Shown here piece by piece: positions 2,784 to 32,717 of a stretch of DNA of 42,031 bases. Source of the DNA: a virus. Made by a program: the position numbers and the translations under genes. Every line of letters starts with the position of its first letter. Position 1 is the stretch's first letter. The DNA lies in IMG/VR virus record IMGVR_UViG_3300046524_000273, positions 1-42,031 of that record; one strand, 5' to 3'. The notes beneath the pieces were generated by a model that made no database searches, was not told where the DNA came from, and worked only from the letters and a program-made list of their open reading frames with translations.

Positions 2784-3509
2784 TTACAGCGGCCGCATGG
2801 GTCTGGCGGCAAAGGTGGTTCGACCATTCTTAGCGGTGCCACCTTCCGAGCTAACCATTGCCCCCACGTAACCATTCAATGTTGAGCGCACCCCCGCATG
2901 AAAGCCGCAAGGCGTTTCAAGGGTGCTGTTGCCGTTGTAGATCTTTCCACCGAGCAACGTTGAGGCGAGAAAGTAGTCCTCATACGAACCGGTCCATGGC
3001 ATCTGAAAACCAGACCAATACACGCCCGACTGCTCTTGACCACGACTGTCCAGCGACCAACCTTCGTTGATGGGCAAACCAGTCATTACCAGCAGGTTGT
3101 CGGCACCCACAAAAATCTGTTCGCCAGCCGCATTCCGCAATCGCAGATCATATTGATTGGGCGGCGATGTGGAACGAAAGGTCGCCACCAACCACTTGCC
3201 GCTGCAATCCGAACTGTTGAAAGGCGACATCAACTGCAATTTGAAGTAGAAGCCTGTCCAGTTGCCTGGGCCACCGGTATGCATCAGCGTGTGATACATG
3301 CCCTGATTCGTTGGATTCAGGAATACATGCGGAGCCTCTGTAGTTGTGATCGGCACCGGATAAGTGATCACGGCCTGAGTAATAGTTGTGGGTGCGCCGG
3401 GCGGTTTGCCAATGGTGTAACTGCCGGATGCAGCGACATTCAGCGCTCTATTTTCACTATCGATCTGAAATAAGTTCTGCCCATTGCGAGATCTGAAACC
3501 GTAAGTCAT
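2784..3509 (-). CDS. Hypothetical tail-associated protein
   Basis: 241 residues starting MTYGFRSRNGQNLFQID. This opening is like many small siphovirus proteins encoded after the J-type tip protein. The protein is rich in Gly, Asn, Thr and aromatic residues, has no membrane segment and looks beta-structured. It follows the 98-residue gene by eight bases and ends before a terminator, so it belongs to the tail operon. A surface-exposed tail or fibre accessory role is likely from position, but I recognise no named domain. Confidence 0.65.
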   Translation of the reverse strand: MTYGFRSRNGQNLFQIDSENRALNVAASGSYTIGKPPGAPTTITQAVITYPVPITTTEAPHVFLNPTNQGMYHTLMHTGGPGNWTGFYFKLQLMSPFNSSDCSGKWLVATFRSTSPPNQYDLRLRNAAGEQIFVGADNLLVMTGLPINEGWSLDSRGQEQSGVYWSGFQMPWTGSYEDYFLASTLLGGKIYNGNSTLETPCGFHAGVRSTLNGYVGAMVSSEGGTAKNGRTTFAARPMRPL

Positions 3510-3517
3510 ATCCGCTC

Positions 3518-3814
3518 CTACTGGTAAGTCAGAATAAACACGTTGAGCACCAGGCCCTGCCCTCGCCTTACCTTTAGCTGTCCGGTAGACCAGAAGACCG
3601 CCGGCAATGAGACAGACTCACTGGCTTGAGTTTGAAGTGTGGCGCAGACGAATGACTGCGCCGTTATTTCCGGCATGTCGATGAAACTGGTGAAGTCGCT
3701 GGTGATGGGTGGGACAGTCACCTGTTTCGTCACAATTGACCGAACCGTCATCGTTGAAGTGTCGAGCGTGATAGCGCCCGCTGCGTTTTTGGTCCTTGCT
3801 CCGTAATAAGCCAT
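3518..3814 (-). CDS. Hypothetical tail protein coupled to the J-type tip gene
   Basis: 98 residues starting MAYYGARTKNAAGA. The ATG overlaps the stop of the tail tip gene as TGATG, which decides the start over a TTG one codon upstream and predicts coupled translation. The sequence is beta-rich (TMTVRSIVTKQVTVPP, LKVRRGQGLVLNVFIL), with no signal or membrane segment. Small proteins of this kind follow J in many Pseudomonas siphophages. Function not known. Confidence 0.7.
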   Translation of the reverse strand: MAYYGARTKNAAGAITLDTSTMTVRSIVTKQVTVPPITSDFTSFIDMPEITAQSFVCATLQTQASESVSLPAVFWSTGQLKVRRGQGLVLNVFILTYQ

Positions 3815-6800
3815 CAACCAATTTTCCCGAACGCAGCACGCTCTGTGTTGTTCCCGTCGTAGGCGAACATGCCGTAGTTGTTGAGCAGCATCGAACCGTC
3901 GGCTGTCTGACCGCGAAGTGTCAGGGTCCCAGCAGGGATGTTGATTTCCAGCAGCGGCAACCCTTGGGAGTTCAAAGCAGCAGATCTGAGCGTCATTCCA
4001 AGAATGAGCTCCTTGATGAAGGCGGTGCTGATGATCGCGGTGTTGATGAACACCTGGCCGCCCTGTACCACAAACGGGGCAATCATCTGGCCGCTGACCT
4101 CATCAAGAATCGCAAAGCGTTGGGCGAACGCTAGAATCTGCGACTCCTGCGTCTGCCCCTCTACCCCGATGGCCAGTGCCGCCATGACGGTTCGCCCATC
4201 CACCGTAGTGGACGTCTTAATGGTGGTCAGTGCCGAAACTTTACCGTTCAACCCCGAGATGGCCGAGGTGGCCGTTTCCGCTTTGGCGTTCGCACCGTTG
4301 GCCGACGCGGTCACGCTGTCAATCTTCTGCGCCGTGGCCTCCTTGTCTGTGGCAACAGCAGATTCAAGCGCGGTGAGATTGGTGGCATTCTGCCCGACCG
4401 CTGCGTCAATTGAAGTGAAGCGCGTGGCCGAAGCCAGCTTCTCCTCTGCTAGCACTTTGTCAGTCTGGACAATGCTCGCAGTGTTGTTATAGCCCTTCAG
4501 CGCATCATTCATCGCCGCCGCGCCGTCGTCATCGCGAGAGGCCGCTTGCAACGCCTGAACGGTCGAAGCTTGGGCGGTGACCTTGCCATCGAGGGTGTCA
4601 ATTTGGGTGGTGTGCTGTTGGATCTGCAAGGCCATCGCATTGGTGGTTTCGGCGATGGTTCCCATGTCGTACCAAAATGCAGCGTTCGGTGGGGTGGTCC
4701 CGGCTGGAACTGCCTTTATAGCTGAGAACAAGCGGCCATCTAGTCGCACCACCTCCCCTTTGCCGTATGGCTTAGCCGGGTCATATACCATTGCGTCGGT
4801 GATTTCACTGATCAGCTCTTCCAGCTGCTGCTTGGCGGCCTCAATGCGCCCGTTGACGGAGTCCGTACCGTCCCCGGAAATCTTGCCGATCTCTTCGAAC
4901 AGCTGTTGCCCCAAGGCTGACGCTTGGATTTTCCCAATGAAATACGGCTCATACTCCGCTTGGTCGACACTCGGCTGACCATTTACCCCATTGATTGCCG
5001 GATACCACGGCCCGACATTTCCGGTTCGGTCCACCAGTCGCGCCCAGAAAAACAGGCTGGTGCCGGGCACGATGTTCTGCATTTCGTGATTCGCCTGCGG
5101 GTAGGCGAAATCCGCCAGCTTCACAGCGGTGGCCAAGTCGTTGGCCTTGTTGTTCCAGATCTCGGTGCGCTGTGTGTCCTCCGCACCAGGCGGGAAGCCC
5201 CACTCCAATCCGATCCCGTAGACCTTGCTGGTGGTGCGCAGGAATGACACCGCCGGCGGCAATCCCTCCTTGCCCTTGAGAACAACTTCGTTGCTGGTGC
5301 CCCAGATGGAAGAAACGTCCATGGCGTTGATCGCACTGACACGCGCAACGTATCGCCCACTGTAGATCCCCTCGACTTCCGTTCCGAGGTTTCCAGTGCG
5401 AGGTAGGCGAATCCAGCTGCCGCTTTCCTTACGCCATTCAACGTTGTACGCAATCGCTCCCGGTACCGACGCCCAAGCGATACGCATAGTGCTAATCGCT
5501 ATCCCTTGCGACACCACGCTGCGAGACTCGATGGCTATACCTGTCGGAGCCGGCATAACACCTGGTGGAATGATGCTGATCGGTTGCGGGTCGATCCTCG
5601 CACCGGTATCAATGGCGGCGTATTTCTGCGGTTCATGTTGAATAGCCGAGATTTTGAACTGATGTAGACCTTGCGGTTCGATGGTCTGCACGCGAAAACG
5701 CATCACAGCCAGATCAGCACTTTCAACGGACCAGCTGCACTCTGAGGCTGGCAACTCCGAATAATCCGCCAGCACGGTAATCTGGCGACCCAATACCGAT
5801 TTGACAATGCGCCCTTCAGACTTGCCGCTTGGCAGGTTGATGATCAACCGATCCTCTGGCTTGATCTGCGCATCGATGTCGATAGTGATCACGCGCTTGG
5901 TAGCAGCGCTGATCCTGCCGCCGTTGGGGCGCCCAGATAGCAGCTCGTCAGCCACGCAAATGATCTGGCCTGGCTCGACGTTTCGCCCTTCCATGCCAGT
6001 GGTGAAGCTGACCGACCAGCTTTCATATTGCTCGGACTTCAGCGCCCAGACACCGTGACGCATGGCCTGGCCTTCCGATGTGCAGCCAAAAGCCCCCACG
6101 TCCAACATGCGGTGACCTAGAGCCCCGATCATTTCCTCATTGGTTACAGCAACCGGTTGGGTCTTGAACTCGTTGGCTGGGTTATCCCAGGCAACCTTTG
6201 CCCGGGTGTGCCGGTCTGGCCAGGCGGCAGCGCCATACTCAAACTCGCCGATGACGTTCGACCGAGTGAATACGTAACCGTCTTCATTACCAGGGATGTC
6301 GGCGATCATTGTGACCATTGAACCGTTCCAGCAGCTGCTGCCGTGGAACACGCTGGCCAGATCGGACAGCAAGGCGTACCCCTCAGCCTGGTCCTGGATG
6401 TAGACGTTGGTGGTCATGCGTGGCTCTAGTTCGCCCTTACCATTCGACACAAACACGTCGCAGTAGCGACCGATCTCGTACAGTGTCCAGCGGTCAACCA
6501 TATCTGCCGAAATACGACGGCCCAGCCCATAGCGGCGGTGCAACATCAGGTCGTACCAGACCCATGCCGGGTTATTTGAATAGGCCTGCTTGAAGGTGCC
6601 ATCCCAGTTGCCGACGTAAGTGCGGCTCTCTGGGTCATAGTTGCTCGGAACCCGAATGATTCGGCCGCGAGCGCGCAAGCTGAACTTCGGAGTGTCTTGA
6701 AACTGCTTGGCATCGAACTGCAAGCCACCCAGCGCCAAGTTTGGATAACGCAGCTTGGCATCGATGACCTCGGTCAGCGCCTTGATGCGCATCAGGTCTG

Positions 6801-28730: not shown

Positions 28731-28748
28731 AACTCCAATGGAGATGGT
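28728..28748. promoter_or_regulatory. Operator near cI, overlapping the PRM-like region
   Basis: Core CTCC-AAT-GGAGAT with weaker outer arms, 22 bases from the strong site. A possible PRM has TTAAGC at 28725-28730 and TTAATT at 28748-28753 (17 bases apart), reading toward cI. Confidence 0.65.
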
Positions 28749-28779
28749 TAATTATTGCCACGGGGAATATTCTTTGCGT

Positions 28780-29682
28780 ATGACGACAGAACGACGACCG
28801 CTTGAAGACTGGGAAAAGGCTGAATGTGCAGCTCTGAAGGCTGAGCTACAGGCTTTCAATGCACGCTCGCCAAAAGAAAAGAGGCTCACGCAAGAAGAGG
28901 TCGCGCACAGCTTGCGCATGAGCCAAGGCACCCTGAGCAGCCACCTGAATGGCCATCGAGCAATCAACCTCGACATGGCAGCACAGATGGCCAGGCTTCT
29001 CGATATCCCGGTAGAACGATTCAGTAAGCGGCTGGCGAGCGAGATCGGCGAGCTGAGCAAAGTCCCAACGACAAAATCAGCTGTCAGCGCATCTGAAGGC
29101 GCGGCCAGCAAGGTGTTGGATATGCTTCGCAAGCACTCCGGGAAGAAGCTTGATGACAGTGCCCAATCAAAGATCATGGCAGCGGTCACACAGACGCTGC
29201 AGGATGAGCAGAAGAACAATGTTATCCAGGCTGATTTCTCTGGGCTGCGACCGCGTAGCAGTGAAATCCTGATCCCTCAGTACGACATAAGAGCGGCCAT
29301 GGGCGACGGCCAAGTGCCGGCTGATTACAATGAAGCAATCCGAAATCTGGTGGTTAGAGAGGATCTGCTCCGGGAGAAAGGCGTCTCCTACACCTCTAAT
29401 TCAGCGCTTGCTATGGTGACCGGATGGGGGCAAAGCATGGAAGGGACAATCGAGGACAAGGACCCGGTGATTGTTGATCGCGGGGTAACCGAATACATCG
29501 GCGAGGGTGTCTACCTTCTGATCTGGCACGGTGAGCTGTTCATCAAACGCATTCAACGGCAGGACGAAGACCACTTATGGTTGATCTCAGATAACAAGAA
29601 CTATGCAAAGCAGAGCGCTAGGCTGGATGACGTGACCATCAAGGCAAAAGTGCTGATGGTGTGGAATGCTAGAAAGGTTTGA
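28780..29682 (+). CDS. cI: CI-like repressor (HTH plus S24 domain)
   Basis: 300 residues starting MTTERRPLEDWEK, aligning to the N-terminus of lambda CI (MSTKKKPL). The HTH lies at about 35-75 (RLTQEEVAH, SQGTLSSHLNG). The C-terminal S24 domain has Ser219 (GQSMEG) and Lys256 (FIKRIQ), the autocleavage pair. At the usual cleavage point the sequence is IRAAMGDG (168-177), so the canonical Ala-Gly is Met-Gly. It would bind the operators at 28706-28748 and 30152-30196 and hold the lysogenic state. The ATG at 28780 is chosen from the lambda match; the frame continues to 28738. Confidence 0.92.
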   Translation: MTTERRPLEDWEKAECAALKAELQAFNARSPKEKRLTQEEVAHSLRMSQGTLSSHLNGHRAINLDMAAQMARLLDIPVERFSKRLASEIGELSKVPTTKSAVSASEGAASKVLDMLRKHSGKKLDDSAQSKIMAAVTQTLQDEQKNNVIQADFSGLRPRSSEILIPQYDIRAAMGDGQVPADYNEAIRNLVVREDLLREKGVSYTSNSALAMVTGWGQSMEGTIEDKDPVIVDRGVTEYIGEGVYLLIWHGELFIKRIQRQDEDHLWLISDNKNYAKQSARLDDVTIKAKVLMVWNARKV

Positions 29683-29729: not shown

Positions 29730-30047
29730 TCAGAAAGGCGGCTCATCATCAATCACACACAACTCGTCTTGCTCTTCTACTGCTGGATCCTCTTCGTCAA
29801 GCGCTTCCCATCGCAGCGTTACCGAGTCATCGTCATTGAAAGTCATCTCCAAGTTGTCCGTTTCGGATAGCAGTCCCATCACTTCATCCCACTCGAGATC
29901 ACCGTCCGTATCGAGGCGATGGATCGTGACCCACCGCTGCTGTTGTGCGGTGGGGTGATTGATCATCGCGGACACTCGAAGCCCAAGCCGCTCAAGCCCG
30001 GTCATCTCCTGACGAACCTTTTCAACGATTTTCTTCTGCTTAGCCAT
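29730..30047 (-). CDS. DUF1654 family protein
   Basis: 105 residues starting MAKQKKIVEKV. ERLGLRVSAMINHPTAQ and VTIHRLDTDGDLEWDEVMG match the DUF1654 family found in Pseudomonas genomes and phages; the C-terminal 30 residues are acidic. GAGGGG before the ATG sets the start. It lies between cI and the OL-like region on the opposite strand, where lambda carries rexAB, so expression in the lysogen is plausible. Biochemical function unknown. Confidence 0.8.
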   Translation of the reverse strand: MAKQKKIVEKVRQEMTGLERLGLRVSAMINHPTAQQQRWVTIHRLDTDGDLEWDEVMGLLSETDNLEMTFNDDDSVTLRWEALDEEDPAVEEQDELCVIDDEPPF

Positions 30048-30151
30048 GCCACCCCTCGACTGTATATCCATCCAGTAATTTTCGGATCATAGCCGAGCAA
30101 GATCGAAAAGTTAACCCTTTAGCTCTCCGGCCTGCTCACGTCATGGAAATA

Positions 30152-30172
30152 AATATCTCCATTGGAGTTGAC
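30152..30172. promoter_or_regulatory. OL-like operator 1
   Basis: AATATCTCC-ATT-GGAGTTGAC: perfect left arm and GGAG in the right. Centre 24 bases from the next site. It overlaps the -35 region of the PL-like promoter. Confidence 0.75.
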
Positions 30173-30196
30173 TTAAATATTTCCTTGGGAGATATT
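30168..30196 (+). promoter_or_regulatory. PL-like promoter
   Basis: TTGACT at 30168-30173 and GATATT at 30191-30196 with a 17-base spacer, overlapped by both operators. It would start the early left operon near 30203 and be repressed by CI and Cro. Confidence 0.75.
30176..30196. promoter_or_regulatory. OL-like operator 2
   Basis: AATATTTCC-TTG-GGAGATATT: one mismatch to the symmetric consensus. Overlaps the PL -10. The distance of about 1.45 kb from the cI-cro sites would permit looping by CI. Confidence 0.8.
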
Positions 30197-30237
30197 TGCA
30201 TCATCGCCGGATAACTACCGGCCAGGACAAGGCAGCG

Positions 30238-30327
30238 ATGAACCGGCCTCAACGGTTCAGAGGGTTGGCAACTGACCCGGGCGTGCAGCGTAAGTCGTCA
30301 AACAAGTTATCCAGTGGATCGAGCTGA
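30238..30327 (+). CDS. Candidate 29-residue basic peptide in the PL leader
   Basis: ATG at 30238, with AAGG five bases upstream, encodes MNRPQRFRGLATDPGVQR and ends KLSSGSS. It has several Arg/Lys residues early, like the Arg-rich RNA-binding N-terminus of N-type antiterminators, but is much shorter than N (107 residues). It is the first frame after PL. Reality and role uncertain. Confidence 0.35.
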   Translation: MNRPQRFRGLATDPGVQRKSSNKLSSGSS

Positions 30328-30360
30328 TCGCGACTGGAGAGAAAGACACAACGGAATTTT

Positions 30361-30395
30361 TCACTTCTGCACCTGGCTTGCCGGGTGTAGCGGGA
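30361..30395 (+). promoter_or_regulatory. Conserved leader hairpin, copy 1
   Basis: TCACTTCTGCACC, a loop, then GGGTGTAGCGGGA. CTGCACC pairs with GGTGTAG (one G-U pair), at 30367-30390. It lies 22 bases before the start of the LuxR-type gene. The G-U pair here versus G-C in copy 2 is a compensatory-type difference that supports an RNA structure. Confidence 0.75.
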
Positions 30396-30416
30396 AAACA
30401 ACCGGGAGTCACAACG

Positions 30417-30800
30417 ATGGAATCGACAATCGAAAACGGCGCATGGAGGGGCTATCTCGGACGGGGTCTTGCACCGAGGGAGCTTCAGTTTCTTCTCTGG
30501 GTCGCCCTCGGGCTCACTGCGAAGGAAATCGCCCGGGAAGCCGGCATATCCCCGGCAACCGTCGCGAAGCGCCTCACTAACGCAATGTTCAAGCTCGGCG
30601 TTACTCGCCGCGCCGCCTTGGTTGCCGAGGCGATGCGCCGGCAGATCATCTCCCCAATGTGCTTCGTGCTGGCCGCGCTGATCGCCATGCACTCAATGAT
30701 CGCCGACGACTCAATGCGCCGTGACCGCCGAGTTCCTGAACGCCGGATGGCCCAAGTGCGAGTGGTTAAGCGCTCTGAAGCTTTTGATCCGTACTCATAA
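30417..30800 (+). CDS. LuxR-type HTH regulator with a hydrophobic segment
   Basis: 127 residues starting MESTIENGAWRGYLG. The central part is a LuxR-type HTH: LAPRELQFLLWVALGLTAKEIAREAGISPATVAKRLTN-like pattern with KLGVTRRAALVA. After it comes a hydrophobic stretch (about 78-93, MCFVLAALIAMHSM) that might contact the membrane, then a basic tail. GGGAG before the ATG at 30417 sets the start. It is the first sizeable gene of the early left operon and could regulate phage or host genes; no sensor domain is present. Confidence 0.8.
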   Translation: MESTIENGAWRGYLGRGLAPRELQFLLWVALGLTAKEIAREAGISPATVAKRLTNAMFKLGVTRRAALVAEAMRRQIISPMCFVLAALIAMHSMIADDSMRRDRRVPERRMAQVRVVKRSEAFDPYS

Positions 30801-30803
30801 GTA

Positions 30804-30838
30804 TCACTTCTGCACCTTGGCTACAGGGTGCAGCGGGA
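30804..30838 (+). promoter_or_regulatory. Conserved leader hairpin, copy 2
   Basis: TCACTTCTGCACC, loop, GGGTGCAGCGGGA, with a perfect seven-pair stem CTGCACC / GGTGCAG (30810-30833). It lies between the LuxR-type gene and the TAXI-type gene. Confidence 0.8.
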
Positions 30839-30863
30839 TGTAACCCAACCCAGAGGAATGCCC

Positions 30864-31751
30864 ATGAAATCGAAAGCGTTATTACTGGCCATGCTGCTGA
30901 GTATTTCAGCGGTGGCCAGCGCAGCACCGCCACCCCTTCGCTTCTGCACCGGCGGTGAAGGCGGCTTCTACGAGAAGCTCGGTTCAGCCATCGGCCCGGT
31001 GATCACCAAGCAGACCGGCGGCGACTTGAAGGTCATCAACACCGGCGGCAGCGTCGAGAACGCGGAGAAGCTGAAGGATGGCGCCTGCGACATTGCCGTC
31101 ATTCAAAACGACGCAGTGATCAGCCTACCGATGCCGGCCGACATCAAGGTTACCGATGCTCATGAAGAAGTCGTGTACTGGCTGCACGGCAGAGCCGGTG
31201 TTGATGACTTCGGCAAGATGGAAGACGACGACGTAGCGAACAAATACGCCTTCGCTGCGGTGTCCGGCTCGGGTGCACTGGTCACGGTGCGCAACTGGAT
31301 CAAGACCGACAAGGACTACGAGGGTGCGCGCATCGTCGAGTTCGACAGCTGGTACAGCGCCGCCGAAGCAGTTAGCCAGGGCTACGTGAGCAAGGCAGGC
31401 GTCCGGATCGAGATCGCCGGCATGCTGTACATCGGCCGCTCAGGGGCGATCACCAGCGACATCACCGAGGACTTCGGTAAGCAGATCCTCATCGGCGAAG
31501 TCAACGACAGCTCGTTCGAAGACTCGAAGGATGCCAACAATAACCCACTGTACCGCCACTGCGCGGTACCCAAAGAAGCCCGCAGCGGGCTGGACACCTC
31601 GAACTCTTTCAAAGACCCGAAGACCTACTGCTTGCGCGCCCAGATTGTTTTCAACAACGACTACCTGGCAAGCCTGCAACCGGATGAGGCGAAGAAAGTT
31701 CGCCGCGCCGTGGACAAGGGCATCAACAGCGTCGTGAAGGTAGTGCGGTGA
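30864..31751 (+). CDS. TAXI-type periplasmic solute-binding protein
   Basis: 295 residues starting MKSKALLLAMLLSISAV, a typical signal peptide cleaved after about residue 20 (VASA). The mature part begins PPLRFCTGGEGGFYEKLG and has the TAXI-family signature GGSVENAEKL and DIAVIQNDAV. Several cysteines (FC, GAC, HCAV, YC) may form disulfides in the periplasm. AGAGGA about eight bases before the ATG at 30864 sets the start. TAXI proteins deliver ligands to TRAP transporters, but no transporter genes follow; instead a 49-residue membrane peptide overlaps the stop. It is probably a moron that changes the lysogen's envelope or excludes other phages. Confidence 0.82.
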   Translation: MKSKALLLAMLLSISAVASAAPPPLRFCTGGEGGFYEKLGSAIGPVITKQTGGDLKVINTGGSVENAEKLKDGACDIAVIQNDAVISLPMPADIKVTDAHEEVVYWLHGRAGVDDFGKMEDDDVANKYAFAAVSGSGALVTVRNWIKTDKDYEGARIVEFDSWYSAAEAVSQGYVSKAGVRIEIAGMLYIGRSGAITSDITEDFGKQILIGEVNDSSFEDSKDANNNPLYRHCAVPKEARSGLDTSNSFKDPKTYCLRAQIVFNNDYLASLQPDEAKKVRRAVDKGINSVVKVVR

Positions 31752-31897
31752 TCAGCCGCTTGATCACTGCGATCCTTTTGGGCGCTGCCCTACTGGTGGT
31801 AGCGAGCTTTCTTCACATCATATCCATCGCCCACCTGGCCGGCGTTGTCTCCGGCCTCGCCCTGGGCATGGTGATGTGGTTTCGCTTCGCTCGATAG
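31748..31897 (+). CDS. 49-residue membrane peptide coupled to the TAXI-type gene
   Basis: GTG at 31748 overlaps the TAXI stop as GTGA. The protein starts MISRLITAILLGAALLVV and ends MVMWFRFAR, with two hydrophobic segments (about 5-22 and 24-44) separated by a His-containing turn (HIISIAH) and a positively charged end. It looks like a two-helix inner-membrane peptide. The overlap suggests coupled synthesis with the periplasmic protein and a joint function. No family recognised. Confidence 0.7.
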   Translation: MISRLITAILLGAALLVVASFLHIISIAHLAGVVSGLALGMVMWFRFAR

Positions 31898-31899
31898 CA

Positions 31900-31934
31900 T
31901 CACTTCTGCCCATCCACTGAGTGGACAGCGAGAT
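31900..31934 (+). promoter_or_regulatory. Conserved leader hairpin, copy 3 (divergent)
   Basis: TCACTTCTGCCC then TCCAC-TGA-GTGGA and CAGCGAGATG. The stem sequence differs from the other copies but base pairing is kept (TCCAC / GTGGA and CTG / CAG), and the flanks TCACTTCTGC and CAGCGRGA are preserved. Confidence 0.65.
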
Positions 31935-32081
31935 GCGGATGATTCTGCACCGCGCAATGCGGCCCCCTGCATCCAATAGACCGGAAACAAATTGCATCTA
32001 ACTGGAATAGTTTTTCCAGCTAACTCCCACTGAGGATGCCTGCCATGAAATAGATCAAAGCCAGAACATCACTGCATCTGC

Positions 32082-32115
32082 GAAAGGCCCGAACGTCCAA
32101 CGGGCCTTTCTTTTT
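32082..32115 (+). terminator. Strong intrinsic terminator in the early left operon
   Basis: GAAAGGCCCG-AACGTCCAA-CGGGCCTTTC then TTTTT: ten-pair stem plus T-run. It would isolate the three upstream genes from the rest of the operon unless transcription is antiterminated. Confidence 0.88.
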
Positions 32116-32131
32116 GCCCGCGTTTATCCGC

Positions 32132-32181
32132 CAGCACTCTCCCCTGCGCCCAACGGCAACCAGCAGGCGGCCAGAGTGCTG
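32132..32181 (+). other. Long-range stem in the leader of the 90-residue gene
   Basis: CAGCACTCT at 32132-32140 is the exact reverse complement of AGAGTGCTG at 32173-32181, enclosing 32 bases. It lies 33 bases before the ATG at 32215. Likely a structured mRNA leader. Confidence 0.5.
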
Positions 32182-32214
32182 ACGAATAACCGCAACCAGC
32201 ACCGAGGGACAGCC

Positions 32215-32487
32215 ATGCATCCATCATTTCAAGAGCGCATCGACGAACTCGGTGCGCTGTTGCAACAGACCAACGCCGCGCGCGCCGCGTTTTTCGGCCG
32301 CACCGAGCAGCAGATGCCGCCAAAACCAGTGCGCTACCAAGTCGCCGGAGGCAGCGTCGGCATGTTCCAGATCGTCGACCTCAGCACCGGTAAGACTCGC
32401 GCCTTCCGCCAGGACTACAAAGCTGCTCACGACCTTGCCCTGCAGTTCGAAAACAAGGCGAATCGTCTGAAGGCAGGTGCACAGTGA
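32215..32487 (+). CDS. Hypothetical early phage protein
   Basis: 90 residues starting MHPSFQERIDELGALLQQ. The N-terminal half is helical; the second half YQVAGGSVGMFQIVDLSTGKTRAF looks like a small beta fold and is followed by a C-terminal helix. GAGGGA before the ATG sets the start. Its stop overlaps the next gene (GTGA). No family recognised. Confidence 0.72.
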   Translation: MHPSFQERIDELGALLQQTNAARAAFFGRTEQQMPPKPVRYQVAGGSVGMFQIVDLSTGKTRAFRQDYKAAHDLALQFENKANRLKAGAQ

Positions 32488-32717
32488 TCGGCAAGCCAAT
32501 GGCCAACCCGAAAGACGCGATCATCGCGAACCTAAACCGGCAGCTAGATCATTTCTTCGGCGCCGGTGGCAAAGCTGAACCCGCTTCCGAATTCAAGCCC
32601 GAGCAGCGGCCACCACGCTCGGACAAGATCGATCCCGAAACCATCCTGAAGCGCCGTCGCCCTTCCCCATCCCATGCAGAGCGCATCGCACTGCGACGTA
32701 TCACGGAGACGCTATGA
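32484..32717 (+). CDS. Hypothetical early phage protein
   Basis: 77 residues from GTG, overlapping the previous stop by four bases. It begins MIGKPMANPKDAIIANL; a short amphipathic helix is followed by a basic, proline-rich C-terminus (LKRRRPSPSHAERIALRR). An internal ATG six codons in is an alternative start. Function unknown. Confidence 0.65.
   Translation: MIGKPMANPKDAIIANLNRQLDHFFGAGGKAEPASEFKPEQRPPRSDKIDPETILKRRRPSPSHAERIALRRITETL

Follow-up and report, generated by a model that had tools for sequence, protein, structure and literature searches.

RNA phages of the MS2 and PP7 type carry coat-protein operators in which a hairpin with a bulged A lies just 5' of a start codon, a layout suited to protein binding, and the early region of T7 contains RNase III sites in the form of irregular hairpins between the genes of one transcript. 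The closest known kind to the element described here is represented by the SAS/ESAS sequences of cluster K mycobacteriophages, inverted repeats situated by start codons, for which a role in translation initiation was proposed and the factor is unknown (PMC3203893). The put RNA of phage HK022 is about 70 nt long, consists of two stem-loops, occurs once after pL and once after pR and acts with no need for a phage protein (PMC9378689).

The element in question is a hairpin from the left operon of a Pseudomonas prophage-like virus record (IMGVR_UViG_3300046524_000273), the whole 42,031 nt of which is referred to below as the window. It shares with SAS/ESAS the character of a short repeated inverted repeat just upstream of several starts, found in one phage group and nearly uniform in orientation. 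The sequence and the host phylum are different, and ESAS has 17-bp repeats and is accompanied by a 13-bp SAS at the start codon, whereas the hairpin has a bulged A and covarying stems, is confined to one accessory zone and has a diverged form shared with tailocins. Where the sequence next to the hairpins was read, it did not contain the cluster K SAS GGGATAGGAGCCC. The likeness to HK022 put is that both are RNAs of the pL transcript with unpaired positions, cis-acting in put and putatively so here; however, the hairpin is a single stem-loop of about 43 nt, repeated and restricted to the left operon, and identity with put was rejected as neither two adjacent stem-loops of ~70 nt nor copies after both pL and pR were found. 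Similarly to the lambda nut site (boxA-boxB), it lies on the left-operon transcript, but it has no adjacent boxA, no conserved boxB loop and no right-operon copy. It resembles the MS2/PP7 operators in the bulged A and the proximity to the start codon, while its loop is unconserved, the constrained part is the stem base and no coat protein is involved. The T7 RNase III sites are also intergenic on one transcript, but the hairpin is shorter and its bulge core is conserved in sequence.

According to the original prediction, one hairpin is repeated three times at the start of the left operon, and this was borne out: the window contains TCACTTCTGC at exactly three places (30361, 30804 and 31900), always on the + strand. 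A covariance model matched the same three places with E values from 4.5e-10 to 1.6e-14, scores inflated by the presence of these copies in the training set, and the next best match in the window had an E value of 0.5. The real element is longer than initially delimited, an outer stem extending each of the three copies (Table 1).

Table 1. Features of the left-operon region of the window.
Feature	Position	Strand
cI-type repressor (HTH and peptidase S24)	28738-29682	+
DUF1654 gene	29733-30071	opposite to cI
pL, predicted left-operon promoter, TTGACT-17-GATATT, flanked by repressor-operator-like repeats	30168-30196	+
Leader RNA, separate and conserved, three small hairpins, model R3	30229-30301	+
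Hairpin copy 1; outer stem TTTTC/GAAAA, bulged A30362, inner stem CTGCACC/GGGTGTAG	30357-30399	+
LuxR/GerE helix-turn-helix protein, 127 aa; PHROG 3282, annotated as sigma factor	30417-30800	+
Hairpin copy 2; outer stem TATC/GATG, inner stem CTGCACC/GGGTGCAG	30800-30842	+
NMT1/TAXI-like binding protein, secreted, 295 aa, PF16868	30864-31751	+
Small membrane-protein ORF, 49 aa; overlaps the stop of the NMT1/TAXI-like gene	31748-31897	+
Hairpin copy 3; outer stem GCATC/GATGC, inner stem with C x A mismatch	31896-31937	+
Second hairpin CCGCGCAATGCGG, part of the conserved noncoding module that follows copy 3	31950-31962	+
Start-stop minigene ATG-AAA-TAG; GAGGA SD upstream	32045-32053	+
Intrinsic terminator GAAAGGCCCG...CGGGCCTTTCTTTTT, end of the accessory zone	about 32082-32115	+
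Long conserved hairpin CAGCACTCT...AGAGTGCTG; terminator on 5' side, first core gene on 3' side	32118-32196	+
First core left-operon gene, 90 aa, PHROG 6742; all hairpins upstream	32215-32487	+
Core left-operon gene, 77 aa, PHROG 14822; hairpin-independent anchor for sampling	32484-32717	+
Integrase-like ORF	38521-39501	

Copies 1 and 2 precede genes, as had been noticed at first sight, with 21 nt to the start of the LuxR-type gene and 25 nt to the start of the NMT1/TAXI-like gene, respectively. The difference between them, a G-U pair in copy 1 in place of G-C in copy 2, is real, and with 10-nt flanks both fold far better than shuffled sequences (z -4.6 and z -3.3). For copy 3 alone folding was no better than for shuffles (z -0.25). 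This copy had been described as having a different stem with pairing kept; the stem is indeed different, but pairing is kept only in part, as a C x A mismatch interrupts CTGC...ACAG and, next to the bulge, GCGAGA disrupts the nearly invariant C-G pair. The relatives of copy 3 (CTGCCCATTCACTGAGTGGGCAGCGGGA) are fully paired, thus the description holds for the family and partly for copy 3.

A stop codon lies immediately 5' of copy 3 and no gene directly 3' of it. The suggestion that a gene had been lost here did not hold up: the region behind copy 3 is a noncoding module in which a second hairpin is followed at some distance by a start-stop minigene, and the same module stands behind copy-3 relatives in other phages, so nothing points to a lost gene. 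Start-stop minigenes (ATGTAA, ATGTGA and ATGAAATAG) with strong Shine-Dalgarno (SD) sequences were noticed in 62 of 140 loci, compared with 6 expected from shuffles, in the zone behind the hairpins that they also occupy in the window. Two loci, L004 (about 3440-3570) and L006 (about 3980-4110), contain a large variable noncoding insert bounded by GCATCGGGGTGTGATCTG/CAGATCACACCCCGATGC, which adjoins the copy-3-type module and is possibly another structured RNA. In L007, L032, L103 and others, a small hairpin with an SD-like GGAGG in the loop (CATAGGGAGGTCTATG and variants) lies in the interval from the last hairpin to the terminator, just before the latter. The long hairpin that follows the terminator in the window is also present after the terminator at the homologous places in related loci.

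The search of viral contigs with the pattern CACTTCTGC-(12-22)-GCAGCGRGA gave at least 120 matches, and most of those listed were plainly the hairpin. Read from outside in, the element consists of an outer stem of 4-5 bp whose sequence changes, a C-G pair that is U-A in tailocins, the bulged A, a second C-G pair with hardly any variation, a nearly constant U-G pair, an often mismatched pair, a stem of 8-10 bp and a free loop. The copies were aligned first as a set of 34 and then as a more diverse set of 39. In the latter, changes on both sides with pairing kept were detected in 14 of 18 pairs and 91.7% of cells were paired; the covariation score was 0.492, compared with 0.158 for shuffles, which ignore relatedness, and at most 0.11 for slid registers. 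The aligned sequences were hand-picked from patterns favouring the motif. RNAalifold run with no structure as input returned the same helices. The addition of tailocin forms raised the score to 0.704, and in an alignment including such forms the bulged A was identical in 23/23 rows.

A partly independent check was provided by loci chosen by LuxR-protein homology alone. A model match upstream of the LuxR gene was present in 71 of these 80 loci, and all 151 matches were codirectional. The inner stems at this position (CACTTCTGCACC/GGGTGCAGCGGG, CACTGATGCACC/GGGTGCATTGGG, CACCGATAGGCC/GGCCTAACGGG, CACTGGCTGGCC/GGCCAGACGGG, CACGTCAGCGCC/GGCGCTTTCGG and others) have been replaced wholesale with pairing kept. 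The retention of G-U pairs at two positions and the strict strand bias favour RNA over DNA as the functional form. Selection for RNA structure, which the three window copies alone could not prove, is strongly supported by the covariation among homologues, and the hairpin is almost certainly a working RNA control element whose shape is kept while its letters change. No Rfam 15 family reached the gathering score in the window or in five related loci, and permissive thresholds gave only sub-threshold chance matches elsewhere in the region. No description of such an element in Pseudomonas phages was found in the open-access literature, and its assignment as an undescribed structured-RNA family is well supported.

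All sites are located in the left (pL) operon, in the direction of transcription, with the cI region on one side and the core genes on the other. In loci fetched by the pattern, cI homologues were upstream and codirectional in 76/76 site-gene pairs and the 77-aa core gene was downstream and codirectional in 96/96. In a sample unbiased with respect to the hairpin, fetched with the 77-aa core gene, 62 of 80 loci had at least one match, always on the gene strand. The arrangement known from ESAS, an inverted repeat shortly 5' of several starts, was also found in this sample: an SD and a start codon followed within 60 nt behind 79 of 97 distinct sites, with the mode at 20-23 nt (54 of the 79), although a compact phage intergenic spacing alone could explain so short a distance. 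About one fifth of the sites have no ORF close behind. The preceding stop codon is usually 3-15 nt 5' of the hairpin. Sequestration of the SD was rejected: with the native hairpin in place the SD was predicted to be a little more accessible, rather than less so, than with shuffled ones (0.495 vs 0.442, p 7e-4). The 107 downstream proteins fell into 40 clusters, mostly unknowns, and the gene types behind the hairpin include LuxR-type, TerB, CsrA and ParB-like proteins. CsrA/RsmA-family phage genes at or near the hairpin were seen in L169 (PF02599 detected on the protein) and, by eye, in L008 and L135. The hairpin as a CsrA/RsmA site was rejected on sequence, the loop having no ANGGA, though some cassettes encode a CsrA protein.

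This placement brings to mind a site at which an endonuclease cuts the pL transcript into gene-sized mRNAs, as at the T7 early RNase III sites, or one that stabilises 5' ends. The near-intercistronic position at the boundaries of gene units, the length of about 17 bp with a bulge and the occurrence on the mRNA strand only agree with such processing. The bulge core, however, is conserved in sequence, which RNase III is not known to require, and single copies lying directly in leaders would gain little from cleavage. We consider this explanation improbable.

A strong break in the mosaic also falls at the hairpin: when two sites resemble each other on one side of it, the other side is dissimilar in 91% of pairs, compared with 45% for a control point placed 3.5 kb further downstream; this control is small and unmatched and lies in less mosaic sequence. 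Such a break agrees with a boundary at the DNA level, a short shared sequence serving recombination that shuffles accessory cassettes. Homologous boundaries, however, require sequence identity rather than covarying stems, and here the stems were swapped wholesale at the same gene; the strict strand and SD spacing would be left unexplained, and the boundary status may itself be a consequence of an RNA role. Among the explanations considered, we regard this one as the least probable.

The host range is narrow. The model matched 166 of 399 Pseudomonas genomes but none of the 368 other gammaproteobacterial genomes from a class-wide sample of 369, in which the sole match was the Pseudomonas query genome. 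In the order sample, the four matching genomes were all within the Pseudomonas genus list. The matching genomes had 1-8 matches each and, where the context was read, these lay in prophage left operons or, in diverged form, in tailocin leaders; a REP-type palindrome dispersed over the chromosome was not what these numbers showed. Short-query BLAST against isolated phages gave few matches, most occurrences being in prophages or metagenomic virus contigs, and extra copies outside the first pattern search were found in the P. aeruginosa phages LESphi3 and TC7 and in the P. syringae phage Medea1.

A second structured RNA, the leader RNA, lies between pL and copy 1, with changes on both sides in 7 of 16 pairs and no match in Rfam. 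It was detected in 227 of 399 Pseudomonas genomes and is nearly identical across many prophages and tailocin clusters; in tailocin-type clusters it occurs, in the annotated one, after prtR. In tailocin leaders, a hairpin GCATTACTGAAAAGCCCGG...CCGGGCTTTTTGGAATGC is located behind the leader RNA and aligns with the phage element including the bulge, and alignment and position together suggest that the two are homologous. This form is shaped like an intrinsic terminator and lies 47-105 nt from the next ORF, which makes it a poor fit to a pure translation-start role. Some of the tailocin forms scored 33-34 bits with the model, others being missed or near background. A terminator-shaped relative, GCATTACTGAAAAGCC...GGGCTTTTTGGAATGC, was noted behind the leader RNA in L390 and L396-L405.

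These relatives bear on a role in transcription, in which the hairpin would be either a nut/put-like site or a signal for pausing or termination, to be read by an antitermination complex that had loaded upstream on the leader RNA. The sites do lie between pL and the core genes, the tailocin form, which immediately follows the leader RNA, is a GC-rich stem in which a U tract is embedded (AAAAGCCCGG...CCGGGCTTTTT), and a boxA-like GCTCTTTA precedes 33 of 88 leaders compared with 0.7 expected. Nevertheless, a boxA-like sequence was found at most 120 nt from only 3 of 167 hairpins and beside none of the window copies, the right operon of the window has no copy, and in phiAH14a the detected copy is several genes away from the promoter. 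The canonical nutL/putL position is held by the leader RNA, not by the hairpin, and the leader RNA is the better antiterminator candidate. The proposal of a nut-like antitermination site was thus not supported for the hairpin, which has no boxA and no right-operon copy and does not need proximity to the promoter. The phage copies have no U tract, and their function as terminators was rejected on this ground. A transcriptional role is rather unlikely overall, though it comes before processing and the DNA boundary; the tailocin forms, terminator-shaped and further from starts, would fit it.

The explanation weighted first, with a probability of roughly 0.45, is post-transcriptional: the hairpin would be a cis-acting RNA of the pL transcript through which a trans-acting factor controls the gene that follows. 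The hairpin marks the 5' boundary of each accessory gene unit, lying after the preceding stop codon and ahead of the Shine-Dalgarno sequence. A candidate RNA-binding factor acting in trans would read the invariant core, i.e., the bulged A between two C-G pairs and the U-G pair, and once bound would set the translation or stability of the downstream gene. The data show a selected RNA-like structure, its location, orientation and spacing, and its host range, whereas both the binding and the post-transcriptional output are what we infer.

The factor is presumed to be encoded by Pseudomonas, as dissimilar phages and, in diverged form, tailocins carry the hairpin and no phage gene was shared among the few tested. 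A Com-like zinc ribbon (PF10122), tried since it is encoded beside the hairpin in one tailocin cluster, was rejected as a general partner, with none in the window and a score over the cut-off in 4 of 42 records. A partner among the core genes was likewise rejected: in 14 of the 74 loci that extend 4 kb or more downstream, both anchors (32215 and 32484) escaped detection, so that neither is a clear universal partner, though a few of these 14 may be false hairpin matches. A broader and doubtful extension is a Pseudomonas-wide RNA regulon, in which one host-encoded RNA-binding factor would act on the bulged-A hairpin in both phage cassettes and tailocin operons. If true, unrelated mobile elements and bacterial weapons would have in common a single switch, either post-transcriptional or at elongation, that operates downstream of a repressor of the cI/PrtR type.

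The hairpin marks the accessory genes of Pseudomonas prophages and so gives a handle for finding LuxR-type, TerB and CsrA genes and many unknowns. These genes are swappable, with the hairpin copied in front of them and its diverged form present in bacterial phage-tail weapons. The hairpin also gives access to the question of how newly acquired phage genes come under control at once. The link to the tailocin leaders, if true, would tie the control of phage genes to the regulation of bacterial killing devices.
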